64,000 bases of DNA from Acidobacteriota bacterium. Lineage in GTDB: Bacteria; Acidobacteriota; Terriglobia; Acidiferrales; UBA7541. The translations under genes were made by a program, and so were the position numbers. The notes under the pieces are model-generated. The model searched no databases, was not told where the DNA came from, and saw only the letters and a list, made by a program, of their open reading frames with translations. Shown here one piece after another: positions 3,529 to 36,951 of this stretch. Position 1 is the first letter of the stretch. Each line of letters begins with the position of its first letter. The stretch covers positions 46,712-110,711 of the forward strand of contig QHYZ01000060.1 of assembly GCA_003225295.1 (NCBI GenBank), in the 5' to 3' direction.

Positions 3529-6500
3529 TCAATCTCCAGACACCGCTCCTGGCGCAGGCTCCTCGACGGGATTGCCGACGTGGAACGAGAAGCGGTGGGC
3601 CAGCCAGTCAAATGCAAGATAAACCACCGGCGTGGTGTAGAGCGTGAGCAACTGGCTGAGGATCAGGCCGCCGACGATGGTGATCCCCAAGGGGCGCCGC
3701 AATTCTGAACCGACGCCAGTGCCGAGCGCGAGCGGCAAACCGCCAAGCAACGCTGCCATGGTGGTCATCATTATGGGGCGAAAACGAAGGAGGCAGGCTT
3801 CGTAGATGGCGTCAAGCGGCGCCTTTCCTTCCTTGCGCTCCGCCTCGAGAGCGAAGTCGATCATCATGATGGCGTTTTTCTTGACGATGCCGATGAGAAG
3901 GATCATTCCGATTAGGGCGACAACGCTGAAATCGGTGCGGCAGATCAGGAGAGCAAGGATAGCGCCGACACCGGCGGACGGGAGCGTGGAAATAATCGTT
4001 ATTGGGTGAATGTAGCTTTCGTACAGGATGCCGAGAACGATGTAGACCGTGATCACTGCCGCGAGGATGAGGATCGGCTCATTTGCGAGGGAATTAAGGA
4101 AGGCCGCCGCGGTGCCCTGAAAGGTGGCCTGCACGCTGGGCGGCATGTTCAGATCCTGCTTGACGCGGTTAATGGAGTTGACGGCGTCGCCAAGCGAGAC
4201 ATTGGGAGCAAGGTTGAACGAGAGCGTGACAACAGGAAACTGACCCTGATGGTTCAGCGCCAGAGCGGCAGCGCCGGGCTCGAAGCGCGTGAAGGCGCTG
4301 AGGGGAACCTGCGAACCGTTGGAGGATCTTACGTAAATATATTTCAGCGAATCGGGATCCTGCTGGAATCGCGGGTCCACTTCCAGGACGACGTGATACT
4401 GATTGAGTTGCGTGAAAATGGTGGAGACCAGGCGCTGTCCGAAAGCGTCGTAAAGCGTGTTGTCAATATCGGCAGGAAGAATGCCCAGCCGCGAAGCGGA
4501 GTCGCGGTCGATGGTGAGTGCGGCGACGAGGCCCTGGTTCAACTGGTCGCTAGCGACATCGCGCAGCTCGGGTAGTGTTTTCAATTTGTCGATAAAGTGG
4601 GACGTCCAGTAGGAGAGTTCCTTGGGATCAACATCCTCAAGACTGTACTGAAATTGGGTCCGGCTCACACGATCTTCTACGGTCAGATCTTGAACGGGCT
4701 GGAGGAAGAGTGAAACTCCGTCGATTTTGGCGAGTTCGGGCTGGAGCCGGCGGATGACATCGGAGGCGCTGATTTTGCGCTGAGCGAGCGGCTTGAGATT
4801 GATCTGGATGCGGCCGCTGTTGAGCGTGGTGTTTGTGCCATCGATGCCGATGAAAGAGGAAAGGCTCTCGACCGCCGAGTCCTTGAGGATTACGCCGGCC
4901 AACTCCCGCTGTCGCTGGGCCATGGCGGCGAAAGAAATGTCTTGCGCACCTTCGGAGACACCCAGAATAACGCCGGTGTCCTGGACCGGAAAAAATCCTT
5001 TGGGAACGTAGATATAGAGAAGAATGGTGCCGACAAGAGTGGCGACGGTGACGAGCAGCGTGGTGGTGCGGAACCGCAGGACAAACTGCAGGGTGCGGCC
5101 ATAGAAAGCAATGATGGAGTTAAAAGCATTTTCCGACTTGCGATACATCCAGCTTTCTTCTTCCTTTTTGTGATGACGGAGGAGCTTGGCGCACATCATG
5201 GGGGTGAGCGTCAGAGAAACAAAGGCGGAAACGAGGATGGTGACAGCAAGGGTCACGGCAAATTCACGGAACAGGCGGCCGACGATATCACCCATGAAGA
5301 GAAGAGGGATGAGCACGGCGATGAGCGAAATGGTGAGCGAAACGATGGTGAAGCCGATCTGCTCGGAACCCTTGAGCGCGGCCTGCAGCGGCGATTCCCC
5401 TTCTTCGATGTAACGGCTGATGTTCTCGATCATGACAATGGCATCGTCGACGACGAAACCGGTCGAGATGGTTAGCGCCATGAGAGAAAGGTTGTTAAGG
5501 CTGTAGCCGAGAAGATACATCACCGCGAAGGTGCCGATGAGAGAAAGAGGAACGGCAATGCTGGGAATAATGGTGGCGCGAATGCTGCGGAGAAAAAGAA
5601 AAATAACCATGACGACGAGAGCGACGGTGAGCACCAAGGTGAACTGCACGTCTTCGACGGAGGCCCGAATGGTGGTGGTGCGGTCCGTGAGAATGTCCAC
5701 CTTAACAGCGGCGGGAAGCGCGGCCTTAAGCTGAGGCAAAAGCTTTGTCACGCGGTCGACCACGGCGATGATGTTCGCGCCGGGCTGGCGCTGAATATTC
5801 AGAATGACGGCGGGATTCTGATCGGCCCAGGCGGCCTGCCTGACGTTTTCTACGCCGTCAACAACGGTGGCCACGTCGGTCAGCCGCACCGGCGCGCCAT
5901 TTCGGTAGGCAACGATCAGAGGGCGATAGCTGTCGCTGGAGATGAGCTGGTCGTTTGCGCCAATGGTGTAGGCCTGATGCAGGCCGTCGAAAGTGCCCTT
6001 GGCCTGATCGACATTGGCCTGGCCGAGGGCGGTGCGGAGATCTTCCAGACTCATGCCGTAAGAAGCCAGGGCCGTGGGATTCGCCTGAATACGAACGGCG
6101 GGACGCTGGCCACCGCTGATGCTGACGAGTCCGACTCCAGAGAGTTGAGAAATCTTCTGGGCGAGTGTGGTATCGGCGAGGTCCTCGACTTTGGAGAGCG
6201 GAAGAGATGTTGAAGTGAGCGCGAGGGTCATGATGGGCGCGTCAGCAGGATTGACCTTGCTGTAGATCGGAGGATTGGGAAGACCCTGCGGGAGGAGATT
6301 GGATGCGCCGTTGATGGCGGCTTGAACTCCTTGCTCCGCGACGTCAATGTTCAAGTCCAGGCCGAATTGGAGGGTGATGATCGAGCTACCGAAGGAGCTC
6401 GTAGAGGTCATCTGGTTCAAGCCGGGGATCTGGCCGAACTGGCGCTCGAGTGGCGCGGTGACTGAGGAAGCCATGACGTCCGGGCTGGCACCGGGATAAA

Positions 6501-32619: not shown

Positions 32620-32838
32620 ATGAGCAGGACAGCACTCACGCGCACCAATCTCTTGCTTGAGACGGGGAAAGTCCGGCGGCTGCGCAAGGCTCTTCAGTCA
32701 CGCAGTAATTCCGAGGCCGTGCGGCGCGTAATCGACGAGCGCCTGGCGGTGGAGGCTGGACTTCAGGCCCTGCAGGATCTGCGAAAGCTTGGAGGTCCGG
32801 AGGACGTCTTCGGACGCGCTCCAGCGAAGAGGAGATGA
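32620..32838 (+). CDS. Antitoxin of a VapBC-type toxin-antitoxin pair
   Basis: Small basic protein of 72 residues. The middle part, SRSNSEAVRRVIDERLAVEAG, looks like the helix-turn segment of a ribbon-helix-helix antitoxin that binds its own operator, and the C-terminal tail (LRKLGGPEDVFGRAPAKRR) would wrap the toxin. Its last bases overlap the toxin start by ATGA, the usual coupling for such pairs. The upstream TATAAT box and inverted repeat fit autoregulation. The antitoxin class is inferred, since the N-terminal strand is not diagnostic. Confidence 0.75.
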   Translation: MSRTALTRTNLLLETGKVRRLRKALQSRSNSEAVRRVIDERLAVEAGLQALQDLRKLGGPEDVFGRAPAKRR

Positions 32839-33308
32839 CTGCCCTACCGGCCGGACCGCTTCTGTTCGATACTGGCGTTTACATCCGGTTTAGCCGGGGA
32901 GAGAACTACTTCTGGCTAGGCCAGGATGCTCGAGTCTTCCAGCGCACCATCCTGACGGCCGTTGTGGCCGCCGAACTCTATGCCGGTACCCACGACCATC
33001 GGGAAAAGCGAGTTCTGGACGAACTTTGCAAGGCGCACCGAGCCCTCGGTCACTTCTCGTCTCCTTCCTCCGCGGCATGGATTGATGCCGGCATTCTGCT
33101 GCGCCGCGCGCGGAGTGCATATGGGCAAATGGATTTCGTCCGCCACTTTCGCGACCTACTGATCGCGCTGGAAACTGCGCAGGCTGGGGCCACACTCGTG
33201 ACCGAGAATGCCAGAGATTTCGCGCGTTGGAAATCTCTCCTTGCCTCTACCAGGAAGACTCTGAAACTGTTTGAGCCGTCTAAACGAAAGGAGTTTGCCC
33301 GTGGCTAA
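32835..33308 (+). CDS. PIN-domain toxin, VapC family
   Basis: PIN-domain ribonuclease of 157 residues. The acidic active-site residues are visible: Asp in LLFDTGVYIRFS, Glu in VVAAELYAG, Asp in FRDLLIALETA and Asp in ENARDFARW. VapC toxins cleave tRNA or rRNA. The ATG overlaps the antitoxin stop (ATGA). Unusually, its last eight bases overlap the GTG start of the merB-like gene, whose ribosome site AAAGGAG lies inside the toxin coding sequence, so the toxin operon reads straight into organomercurial lyase. Confidence 0.85.
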   Translation: MTALPAGPLLFDTGVYIRFSRGENYFWLGQDARVFQRTILTAVVAAELYAGTHDHREKRVLDELCKAHRALGHFSSPSSAAWIDAGILLRRARSAYGQMDFVRHFRDLLIALETAQAGATLVTENARDFARWKSLLASTRKTLKLFEPSKRKEFARG

Positions 33309-33987
33309 AAAACTTACCTACACCGAAGCGGACGCCGCTTTTCGTCAGGCCCTCTACCATTTCATTGTCACCCGCGGCCACGTCCCAAAAATCGGCGAAC
33401 TCACCGCGGCGCTGTCGCGTTCCCAAAAGACCGTGCGCTCCGCTCTGCAGCGTCTCGCGGATCTGCACATTCTGGTGCTCCAGCAAAATACGTCGGAAGT
33501 TCTTCGCGCCGCTCCGTTCTGGGCTGTGCCCACGGCCTTCCACGTGCAGTCCGCCAAGCGCTCCTGGTGGGCATCGTGCGTCTGGGACGCCCTCGCGATT
33601 CCCTTAATGCTTCGCCGCGACGCTCGCGTCACCACCGCGTGTGCCTGCTGCGACTCCGCCATGGAGCTTATCGTCCATAAAGGAGGTCTCCTCGGAACGA
33701 AAGGCGTCATTCATTTCGCTGTGCCGGCATCCCGCTGGTACGAGAACATCGTCTTCACCTGAAAGACCATGCTGCTCTTCCGGTCGGAAGAGCACGTCGC
33801 CCGCTGGTGCCGCATCTGGAAGCTTCGGCGCGGGGCTGTCTTCCCACTCCAGCAAGGTCTGCGTCTGGCCAAAGCCTGGTACGGCGACCGCCTTTCGCCC
33901 AAGTGGCGTCCCTTCTCGCCGCAACAAGCCCAGGCCACATTGAACAACGTCGGACTCCGTTCCGCATTCTGGCGCCTGAGTTCCTAG
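33301..33987 (+). CDS. merB: Organomercurial lyase (MerB family), candidate selenoprotein with in-frame TGA
   Basis: MerB cleaves the carbon-mercury bond of organomercurials in the cytoplasm. The frame runs from GTG 33301 (AAAGGAG 7 nt upstream) to TAG 33987, 228 residues, with one in-frame TGA at 33760-33762 (codon 154). Before it lie a winged-helix-like N-terminus (ELTAALSRSQKTVRSALQRL) and the catalytic Cys93-V-W-Asp96, matching Cys96-x-x-Asp99 of classical MerB. The TGA is 61 residues after Cys93; classical MerB has Cys159 63 residues after Cys96. After the TGA the match goes on: KTMLLFRSEEHVARWC, then LAKAWYGDRL. A hairpin with loop GGTC follows at the spacing of a bacterial SECIS. I read the TGA as selenocysteine replacing the second catalytic Cys. 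A nonsense mutation is the alternative but would not explain the hairpin or the conserved downstream half. Confidence 0.85.
33763..33797 (+). promoter_or_regulatory. Candidate bacterial SECIS element in merB
   Basis: Directly after the in-frame TGA, 33774-33781 (GCTCTTCC) pairs perfectly with 33786-33793 (GGAAGAGC), leaving the four-base loop GGTC at 33782-33785. The loop begins 19 nt past the TGA. E. coli fdhF has its GGUCU loop 18 nt past the UGA. SelB recognises such a loop with exposed G and U. Confidence 0.8.
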
Positions 33988-34723: not shown

Positions 34724-34755
34724 TTGACTCTGGCCTACACTCCAGGGTGTAGATT
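34724..34755 (+). promoter_or_regulatory. MerR-controlled promoter and operator of the mer operon
   Basis: TTGACT (-35, 34724-34729) and TAGATT (-10, 34750-34755) are separated by 20 bases, the overlong spacer that MerR activators correct by twisting the DNA. Within the spacer sits the perfect dyad CTACAC-6-GTGTAG (34735-34752). It lies 20 bases upstream of merR, which it must autoregulate. Confidence 0.88.
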
Positions 34756-34774: not shown

Positions 34775-35164
34775 ATGCAAATTGGCATCGTCGCGAAAAA
34801 GATTGGGCTTAGCGTGGACGCGATTCGCTTCTACGAACACAATGGCTTGTTGCCTCGGCCGCCTAGGACGCAAGGAGGCTTCCGGCGATATGCGGAAAAC
34901 GATGTAGAAACTCTGGCCTTCGTTCGTCGCGTGCAAGGCCTGGGATTCAAACTGAGCGAAATCCGAGACCTCCTGAAGCTCAGAGGGAATCGCTTGCAGC
35001 CATGCGCACCGGTGCAGCGCCGCTTGCAAGAAAAGCTCGCCGATGTACAGCGGAAGCTTAGCGACCTGCACAAGCTGGAACACGAGCTGCGTTTGGCATT
35101 ACGCAGCTGCAACAAAGAACTGCACAAGCGATCCGCTCATTGCCCAATCTCGCGAGAAAAGTAA
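34775..35164 (+). CDS. merR: MerR mercury-responsive transcription regulator
   Basis: MerR-family activator of 129 residues. The N-terminal helix-turn-helix (IGIVAKKIGLSVDAIRFYE, then GLLPRPPRTQGGFRRY) is canonical. Three cysteines, Cys77, Cys112 and Cys123, match the Hg(II) site of classical MerR (Cys82, Cys117, Cys126): the first two are 35 apart in both, the last gap is 11 rather than 9. One site is built across the dimer. I take ATG 34775; GTG 34766 is an alternative. The overlong-spacer promoter just upstream and the downstream genes on the same strand make this the regulator of the following operon. Confidence 0.9.
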   Translation: MQIGIVAKKIGLSVDAIRFYEHNGLLPRPPRTQGGFRRYAENDVETLAFVRRVQGLGFKLSEIRDLLKLRGNRLQPCAPVQRRLQEKLADVQRKLSDLHKLEHELRLALRSCNKELHKRSAHCPISREK

Positions 35165-35189
35165 ATGTACGCAAACCGGAGAGTGCCGA

Positions 35190-35513
35190 GTGAAAGTTGA
35201 GGTCTTATATGTGGCAGATTGCCCGACTCACCCAGCCGCGGTGAAGCTGGTTAAGCACGTTTTGGCCGCAGAAGGTGTCGAGGCGGAGATCCACGAGGTA
35301 CTCGTCAGGGACGAAGGGATGGCCAGCGAACTTGGATTTTGCGGTTCTCCGACAATCCGAATCAATGGACGAGATGTCACGGGAGAGTCGCAGGACGCTC
35401 GGAGTTTCGCGCTGAGTTGCCGTTTGTATCCTGGATCGAAGCAGATCGGTCTTCCACCAGCGGAGATGGTTCATCAGGCAGTGCTGAAAGCCCGGCAAGG
35501 GGCAAGACGGTGA
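35190..35513 (+). CDS. Thioredoxin-fold small protein of the mer cluster, function unknown
   Basis: Protein of 107 residues beginning with a GTG (GGAGAG upstream). The pattern VEVLYVADCPTHPAAVKLVKHVL has one Cys near the N-terminal strand-helix junction, where thioredoxin-like proteins place their active Cys, and GSPTIRINGRDV gives the cis-Pro-like turn. Later residues include a second Cys region (FALSCRLYPGSK) and an amphipathic C-terminal helix. Sequences of this look often sit in mer or arsenic clusters, but I cannot name the family. With merR it shares the operon, 25 bases downstream; it may carry mercury or electrons between the cluster proteins (inference). Confidence 0.75.
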   Translation: MKVEVLYVADCPTHPAAVKLVKHVLAAEGVEAEIHEVLVRDEGMASELGFCGSPTIRINGRDVTGESQDARSFALSCRLYPGSKQIGLPPAEMVHQAVLKARQGARR

Positions 35514-35581
35514 AAAGGGGCACGGGCATTTCGGTCTCCCTCTGCGGCGATCCTGAGTTCAGTGAATGGAGGGTCCAAGTT

Positions 35582-35944
35582 ATGACCGAGCACCAGGGAG
35601 CTTGCTGTAGCTCACCAGCAACGATGTGCTACTGGTTCGCTGCGTCTCTGATCGCCTGGGGAGTACTTAGCCTCATCGGCTTGTATTGGCGTGCTCTCCA
35701 TGCGTTGTCTGCCGCTACGATCCTTTTCGCAATGGCAATCGGCTGCGTTGCCAACTGGTTTAGGAATCGCACTCTGCACTGCGGTATCACTGGGCCACTA
35801 TTCTTGATCGCTGCCGTCCTGTTCCTGCTTTCAGACGTGAGTATTGCTCACGTCAACAGTCTTTTGGTTTGGCCATTCGTGCTACTAGGGGTCGGCATTG
35901 CGTTTCTGCTGGAATGGCGCTATGCGCGGCGTTCCGCATCATAG
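35582..35944 (+). CDS. Four-helix membrane protein of the mer cluster with N-terminal Cys-Cys
   Basis: Membrane protein of 120 residues with about four hydrophobic helices. Near the N-terminus it has ACCSSPATMCYW, that is a vicinal Cys pair plus a third Cys, and a Cys each in IGCVANW and LHCGIT. A vicinal Cys pair before TM1 is the hallmark of mercury transporters such as MerT/MerC/MerF, but the rest does not match any of these closely. GGAGGG lies 8 nt before the ATG. Placed between merR and merT, it could be a mercury importer or an unknown accessory; I cannot tell which. Confidence 0.7.
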   Translation: MTEHQGACCSSPATMCYWFAASLIAWGVLSLIGLYWRALHALSAATILFAMAIGCVANWFRNRTLHCGITGPLFLIAAVLFLLSDVSIAHVNSLLVWPFVLLGVGIAFLLEWRYARRSAS

Positions 35945-36007
35945 CTGTGAGGATGTGAATGCGCTTCCTGCCGGGCCATTTGCTCTTAGATAGAGGAACG
36001 AGTATCC

Positions 36008-36379
36008 ATGAATACTGAAGCCGTTAGCACGACTGGCAAACCCTCCTCGAAGGGGGCTCTCGCCGCAGCTCTATCAGCGGTTGGAAGTGTCCTGGCCGCT
36101 CTGACCTGCTGCCTGCCGGTGCTCCCGTTTGTGCTCGCTGCTGGAACAGCAAGCAGCGCTAGGTTTCTCTCTTCTTACATCGGCGCCTTTCGGCCATATC
36201 TTTTGGGGGCTTCCGTTCTCTTCATTGCTCTCGGGTTTTATCAAAGCAGACGGGCCAGCCGATGTAATTGCAAACCGAGTGCTCTCAGCCAAGTAGTGCT
36301 GTGGCTGTCAGCCTTGATTGTTGCCATTTCAATTCTGCTGCCGCAGGCATTCGCGGATCTGGTCGAGAGGCTGCTATGA
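36008..36379 (+). CDS. merT: MerT-like mercuric ion transporter
   Basis: Inner-membrane mercury transporter of 123 residues with three predicted helices. TM1 contains the vicinal pair Cys34-Cys35 in LAALTCCLPVLPF, and the cytoplasmic loop has Cys86 and Cys88 in RCNCKPS: the two Cys pairs that pass Hg(II) inward in MerT. The third helix ends the protein (VVLWLSALIVAISILL). No merP is beside it; the next gene, a thioredoxin-like protein, overlaps its stop by ATGA and may take that periplasmic role (inference). Confidence 0.88.
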   Translation: MNTEAVSTTGKPSSKGALAAALSAVGSVLAALTCCLPVLPFVLAAGTASSARFLSSYIGAFRPYLLGASVLFIALGFYQSRRASRCNCKPSALSQVVLWLSALIVAISILLPQAFADLVERLL

Positions 36380-36951
36380 CCCGCAGAAACGTGGGGCTAG
36401 GTCTGGCGGCGCTGACTATTTTTGCTGGGCTGTTTTATTTCTATGGCGGGCACCAGACTCCCACAGGCCAAGCGCCTCTCGCCGCTCTAAATGCAGCGAG
36501 CTTGAGCGAACTCAAGAATGAGTTCAACGGCAGCCACGCCAAGGCTCGCATACTCGTGCTTCTTTCCCCGACTTGACCGGTCTGCTTGCGGGGGGCCTCC
36601 GCGCTCGAAGCCTTACTGGAATCACAGTCAGACTCGCATCTGCGCGTGTTCGTAATTTGGGAACCGGTGCTTGCTACGGACTTGAGCGCGCCCTCGACCA
36701 TCACTCTTCGGCGGATTCACGATCCGCGGGTGAAGCAATACTGGGACCGAAACCGAGTTCTCTCCCATGCGATGGGAGAGCATGATCGTCCGAGCGTGGT
36801 CTGGGACTACATCGCGGTTTACAAGCCAGAACAAATCTGGACAGACGCACCGCCTCAACCCCAATTCACGGGCCGCCCGGTGGTGCGTTTCATCGAAGGA
36901 ACGCGCGGGGCATTGAACACTATTTATTCAGAGCAGAAAAAACTGAACTGA
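36376..36951 (+). CDS. Membrane-anchored thioredoxin-like protein, candidate selenoprotein (UxxC)
   Basis: The frame runs from ATG 36376, which overlaps the merT stop (ATGA), to TGA 36951, 191 residues, with an in-frame TGA at 36574-36576 (codon 67). An N-terminal helix (residues 7-24) anchors it; the rest is outside. The active site reads VLLSPT-(TGA)-PVCLRGA, where thiol-disulfide homologues have CPxC, so TGA stands for the attacking Cys: UxxC. After it the fold continues smoothly (ASALEALLESQ, then RVFVIWEPVL). A hairpin at 36588-36602 follows. Selenocysteine, rather than a nonsense mutation, best fits the position. The role would be to reduce or hand on mercury or selenium-bound metal next to MerT (inference). 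Confidence 0.8.
36577..36611 (+). promoter_or_regulatory. Candidate SECIS hairpin in the thioredoxin-like gene
   Basis: After the in-frame TGA, GCGGG (36588-36592) can pair with TCCGC (36598-36602, last pair G-T), leaving a GGGCC loop that starts 16 nt past the TGA. GCTT (36584-36587) can extend the stem with AAGC (36608-36611) across a bulge. Weaker than the merB element but within the known spacing. Confidence 0.6.

Follow-up and report, generated by a model that had tools for sequence, protein, structure and literature searches.

A MerB-family protein with a UGA codon at the position of its second catalytic cysteine, followed by a conserved hairpin, is encoded in a 64,000-nucleotide stretch of an Acidobacteriota genome (contig QHYZ01000060.1, positions 46,712 to 110,711; the whole stretch is referred to below as the window). 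We consider it probable that this gene encodes an enzyme in which the UGA stands for selenocysteine (Sec) and which cleaves carbon-mercury bonds. The decoding itself is likely from the comparisons given below, and the cleavage is predicted from the fold and the active site. An organomercurial lyase with Sec in place of its second catalytic cysteine had been proposed from the letters of the window alone, and on re-reading the sequence its frame, its coordinates and its single internal TGA were all borne out, as was the spacing of 61 residues between the Cys93-x-x-Asp96 motif and codon 154; the sole internal stop of the frame 33301-33987 is the TGA at 33760-33762. The parts of the gene are as follows.

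33301..33987, forward strand: MerB-family gene, GTG start, TAG stop at 33985-33987, 228 codons when the internal TGA is decoded.
33760..33762, forward strand: in-frame TGA at codon 154, aligned with Cys159 of MerB and predicted to encode selenocysteine.
33577-33579 and 33586-33588, forward strand: codons of Cys93 and Asp96, which match Cys96 and Asp99 of MerB.
33773..33794, forward strand: hairpin resembling a selenocysteine insertion sequence (SECIS), 9-bp stem, loop GGTC at 33782-33785.
33287..33293, forward strand: AAAGGAG, likely ribosome-binding site, 7 nucleotides upstream of the GTG start at 33301.

In a profile search the read-through protein scores 99.5 bits for the Pfam MerB domain PF03243 (cut-off 27), and the best matches of its AlphaFold model are the solved MerB2 and MerB. 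Besides domain score and fold, it shares with MerB (3f0o) and MerB2 (5c17) the first catalytic cysteine and the aspartate (Cys96 and Asp99, present as Cys93 and Asp96) and the place of the second catalytic residue, Cys159, whose column holds the TGA. It differs from MerB in that TGA, in being only 15-23% identical to the solved MerB chains, in scoring below the NCBI MerB cut-offs and in belonging to a separate clade. Also, the Sec-MerB relatives sampled do not lie in a mer operon.

Relatives were collected by searching for PF03243 in genomes translated through stop codons. The domain was matched in 29 of 396 Acidobacteriota genomes, in 5 of 95 genomes from the order of the window and in 48 of 396 genomes of Actinomycetota, the phylum of G490, which is the genome of the Acidimicrobiales locus L018. 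The alignment drew on a subset of the matching loci and held 88 rows, with three short pieces and the loci L046 and L047 not entered. Three rows were dropped, namely L055 (the same locus as L017), L067|-|524 (misaligned) and L093 (a fragment, which reads Cys/TGA), leaving 85 MerB-domain rows from Acidobacteriota and Actinomycetota. At the two catalytic columns, 36 rows read Cys/TGA, 18 from each phylum, 37 read Cys/Cys, 11 TGA/TGA and one Ser/Trp. The mark by which selenoproteins are recognized, an in-frame TGA aligned with the Cys of homologues, is therefore present, with the first Cys kept in all 36 Cys/TGA rows, and the second column, where homologues were expected to carry Cys or Sec, is Cys or TGA in 84 of the 85 rows and Trp in the remaining one. 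The scanned stretch holds 58 TGAs on the catalytic columns and 16 elsewhere, the latter all at the C-terminal end of Cys/Cys rows, where they fit ordinary stops. The residue three past the first site is Asp in all 36 Cys/TGA rows, in 32 of 37 Cys/Cys rows and in 8 of 11 TGA/TGA rows, the other three of which have Glu.

The 11 rows with TGA at both catalytic columns fall into three sequence groups (L042, L043, L044, L045 and L090; L035, L038 and L056; L104, L105 and L107), the last of which has Glu at the position of MerB Asp99. Two Cys/Cys members within the Sec clade, L034 and L039, carry Cys at the position of the catalytic Asp (CLWC and CMWC), and in G352, the genome of L034, selB is not over the cut-off.

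Among database homologues, 71 of 84 stop exactly one residue short of the TGA column. Proteins of 153 residues exist in databases, as would be expected if the TGA were a true stop that yields a short form, and the difference of L017 past residue 191 could be taken in the same sense. A short form of 153 residues would, however, miss the second catalytic residue, and the same TGA stands in 36 Cys/TGA rows from two phyla. A sequencing error is very unlikely because the TGA recurs in many separate genomes. The sequence past the TGA also appears to be mostly under purifying selection: in 16 of 18 pairs of relatives the ratio of nonsynonymous to synonymous substitution rates (dN/dS) lies between 0.00 and 0.38 past the TGA, and before the TGA all 18 pairs lie within 0.06-0.42. 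It is 0.26 past and 0.25 before the TGA for the window gene and L053, and 0.10 and 0.29, respectively, for L024 and L026. We therefore regard a true stop, whether of a short form, a pseudogene or an erroneous read, as extremely improbable.

The hairpin of the window gene, TGCTCTTCC-GGTC-GGAAGAGCA at 33773-33794, has its loop 19 nucleotides past the TGA, where the original prediction had placed it, and a stem one pair longer than the 8 bp given there. When folded against dinucleotide shuffles it reaches a z of -1.90, with 12 of 200 shuffles equally stable, and with the peptide fixed a stem of at least 9 occurs in 0.048 of synonymous versions and an equally low energy in 0.10. Tested gene by gene, the hairpins were mostly non-significant, and hence all rows were tested together at a fixed place: the hairpin had to have a stem of at least 6 and GU in its loop and to lie at a constant distance from the TGA, and the null was synonymous re-coding in 1000 trials. 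Such a hairpin is found in 34 of 36 Cys/TGA rows (null mean 3.67, maximum 11) and in 1 of 37 Cys/Cys rows (null mean 0.26). Of the 11 TGA/TGA rows, 10 carry it at the second site (null mean 4.64, maximum 9), a figure that says little because the peptide there favours a hairpin by itself. On 14 of the 36 Cys/TGA rows, four of seven stem pairs show changes in both partners, and pairing holds in 93.9% of cells, compared with 48-61% when the partner is slid. The SECIS-like hairpin foreseen for this gene is thus conserved among its relatives.

In a tree of the 85 rows, the 36 Cys/TGA rows group with four Cys/Cys rows, three TGA/TGA rows and the Ser/Trp row (98/99), apart from canonical MerB. The other eight TGA/TGA rows are placed elsewhere on long branches, and two of them may be falsely joined, according to the tree program's warning. 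The Ser/Trp row, L037, has TGG at the second column and might suggest that tryptophan or some other amino acid is inserted at the UGA, as might three full-length proteins, among the best 120 of 350 homologues of a neighbouring gene with a UxxC motif, that have Trp at the TGA of that gene. Yet L037 has lost both the first Cys and the hairpin, as expected where Sec has been lost, the 37 Cys/Cys rows have Cys and not Trp at this catalytic column, and the host genome holds the full Sec machinery. Readthrough with an amino acid other than Sec is thus very improbable.

That machinery was identified in the host assembly (8.1 Mb, 385 contigs), where the search for selA, selB, selC and selD that the original prediction had called for found all four: selB scores 359 bits, selA 574 and selD 345, selD itself has an in-frame TGA, and the tRNA-Sec (selC) has a TCA anticodon. 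In the Acidobacteriota sample selB is over the cut-off in 254 of 396 genomes, and in all 15 Acidobacteriota genomes with a Cys/TGA row (G386, G333, G191 and G327 were judged by E-values). A tRNA-Sec of at least 58 bits is present in 15 of the 19 Cys/TGA genomes searched. Near nine TGA/TGA loci (L130-L138), the 49 neighbouring proteins include one SelA (PF03841) and one protein with AIR-synthase domains as in SelD.

Several results weigh against a Sec-containing organomercurial lyase, some concerning the decoding and others the substrate. The tRNA-Sec is weak or below the cut-off in 4 of the 19 genomes, G026 (51.0), G185 (47.4), G451 (44.4) and G490, all of which have selB over the cut-off; as a strict test the tRNA is weak, because other tRNAs score about 45-51 bits. 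In the phylum of G490, selB is found in 14 of 16 Cys/TGA genomes and in 15 of 22 without a TGA row, a weak contrast, and the two Cys/TGA genomes in which it is not over the cut-off are the small assemblies G747 and G733. Two pairs depart from the selection pattern past the TGA: L023 and L027 (dN/dS 0.61, compared with 0.18 before) and the window gene and L017 (0.81), the latter because L017 diverges after residue 191. The hairpin of the window gene alone is modest evidence, because the peptide FRSEE itself favours it; its evidential strength comes from the relatives, with the same column, the same hairpin place and purifying selection past the TGA.

As for the substrate, the window protein scores 33.8 for the NCBIfam MerB equivalog NF009710 (cut-off 193) and 28 for a second NCBI MerB model (cut-off 200). 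The neighbours of 20 Sec-MerB relatives are diverse, tblastn with the proteins of the merR/merT-like cluster of the window gave no match near these 20, and no MerA over the cut-off was found in the host genome, where the best three candidates have no C-terminal Cys pair by eye. The neighbour scans covered 108 of 111 picked open reading frames around 20 Cys/TGA loci (99 families) and 49 of 50 around nine TGA/TGA loci (56 families), and none of the 25 commonest neighbour families is a mer family, except for one MerB beside a TGA/TGA locus. The only tblastn matches, to the MerR-like protein, lie at two TGA/TGA loci (L135 and L137). Membership in a mer operon as a general rule was rejected for the loci sampled, since neither the neighbour scans nor tblastn show a shared mer setting.

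The mercury context is weaker than the original prediction's reading suggests. Since it fits mercury only in part, the main rival reading is that the substrate is something other than organomercury: a Sec-dependent enzyme of MerB fold could act on another organometal or organometalloid, or have a metal-binding or redox role. The diverse neighbours, the missing MerA and the scores far under the MerB equivalog cut-offs favour this alternative, and the review excerpt on SaoL, a Sec relative already known, calls it no more than an organometallic lyase (PMC13188914). On the other hand, Cys, Asp and the Cys159 column are preserved as in MerB, and some 0.8 kb downstream of the gene the window holds a merR/merT-like cluster (34775-36951) that includes a second candidate selenoprotein; the MerR and MerT of this cluster score below the NCBI cut-offs. 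The absence of MerA is not telling, because about half of merB-carrying genomes are without merA according to the survey excerpt (PMC8261052). Hence, we judge a role unrelated to organomercury to be unlikely, and hypothesize that the protein is an organomercurial lyase.

Proton delivery by Asp99 of MerB is established. In the window protein, the organomercurial would be held by the Cys93 thiolate and the Sec154 selenolate, Asp96 would protonate the leaving carbon, and Cys, Sec and Asp would retain Hg(II) until its removal by small thiols. For MerB, the excerpted text describes mercury binding via Cys96, Cys159 and Asp99, after which thiols strip Hg(II) (PMC4525700). Compared with a thiolate, a selenolate is expected to hold mercury more tightly and to be deprotonated to a greater extent at neutral or acid pH, and Sec may confer a benefit such as better organomercury capture.

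SaoL, whose primary description is reportedly that of Haft and Gwadz in 2023, is like the window protein in being a predicted selenoprotein related to MerB. The profile match is weak: the window protein scores 32.5 bits for the SaoL model NF040728 (cut-off 140), over residues 8-130 only, which lie before the Sec codon, and as it is also below both NCBI MerB models we place it in the Pfam MerB family, but neither with SaoL nor with canonical MerB. No Sao model matched any of the eight window neighbours scanned against NCBIfam, and a neighbourhood of SAO operon type was thus not found there. Sec in a MerB relative is already published, SaoL being described in excerpts as a MerB-like organometallic lyase selenoprotein (PMC13188914, PMC9312934). 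Compared by profile and described motif only, SaoL has a CU motif according to the review excerpt (PMC13188914) and the window protein Thr-Sec. Sec is likewise predicted in mercury handling for MerP, MerT-like and mercuric reductase-like selenoproteins, which from the portions consulted are transport or reductase proteins, whereas the window gene belongs to a carbon-mercury lyase family (PMC2398784, PMC9312934). In the literature searched, Sec at MerB Cys159 was not found beyond the SaoL entries, with a possible description in Haft and Gwadz 2023 or Haft and Tolstoy 2025. What appears to be new here is a Sec-MerB clade that is large and spans two phyla, together with relatives in which both catalytic positions hold a Sec codon. 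The original finding is correct and larger than stated.

We lean towards the view that a major branch of the MerB superfamily in Acidobacteriota and Actinomycetota, made up of Sec-based organomercury lyases, has been overlooked, some of its enzymes having a two-Sec mercury site, and that gene callers cut these proteins at the UGA, so that surveys requiring Cys159 record a whole phylum as devoid of MerB. In the portion consulted, a survey of 84,032 genomes screened MerB by Cys96, Asp99, Cys159 and Cys117 and gives none for Acidobacteria (PMC8261052); by contrast, 29 of 396 Acidobacteriota genomes have a MerB-domain match here. If this view is true, methylmercury breakdown is under-counted in both phyla, database annotations of the Sec-MerB clade need correction, and the role of the selenolate in an enzyme that binds and releases mercury becomes testable with natural Cys/Cys, Cys/Sec and Sec/Sec versions.

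Several features surround the gene. Two genes, one small and the other VapC-like (24.8 bits, below the cut-off), lie upstream at 32620-33308 on the forward strand, their end overlapping the merB start, and both are also present in L017. In this same-genus relative (4287-4976), the DNA match (96%) stops at window position 33871 and the last 37 or so MerB residues differ. The second candidate selenoprotein, the UxxC gene at 36376-36951 on the forward strand, has its TGA at 36574-36576 in the motif LLSPT-U-PVC and overlaps the end of the MerT-like gene. Its hairpin is no more stable than shuffled sequence (z -0.15), and 109 of its best 120 of 350 homologues start just past the TGA (M/V-RG-A/S-SA). 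Between the merR-like and merT-like genes, positions 35190-35513 on the forward strand encode the Cys form of the NCBIfam DF family (seleno)protein NF049942 (98.3 bits, cut-off 70). Upstream of the merR-like gene (34775-35164), the inverted repeat CTACACTCCAGGGTGTAG at 34735-34752 resembles a MerR-type operator.
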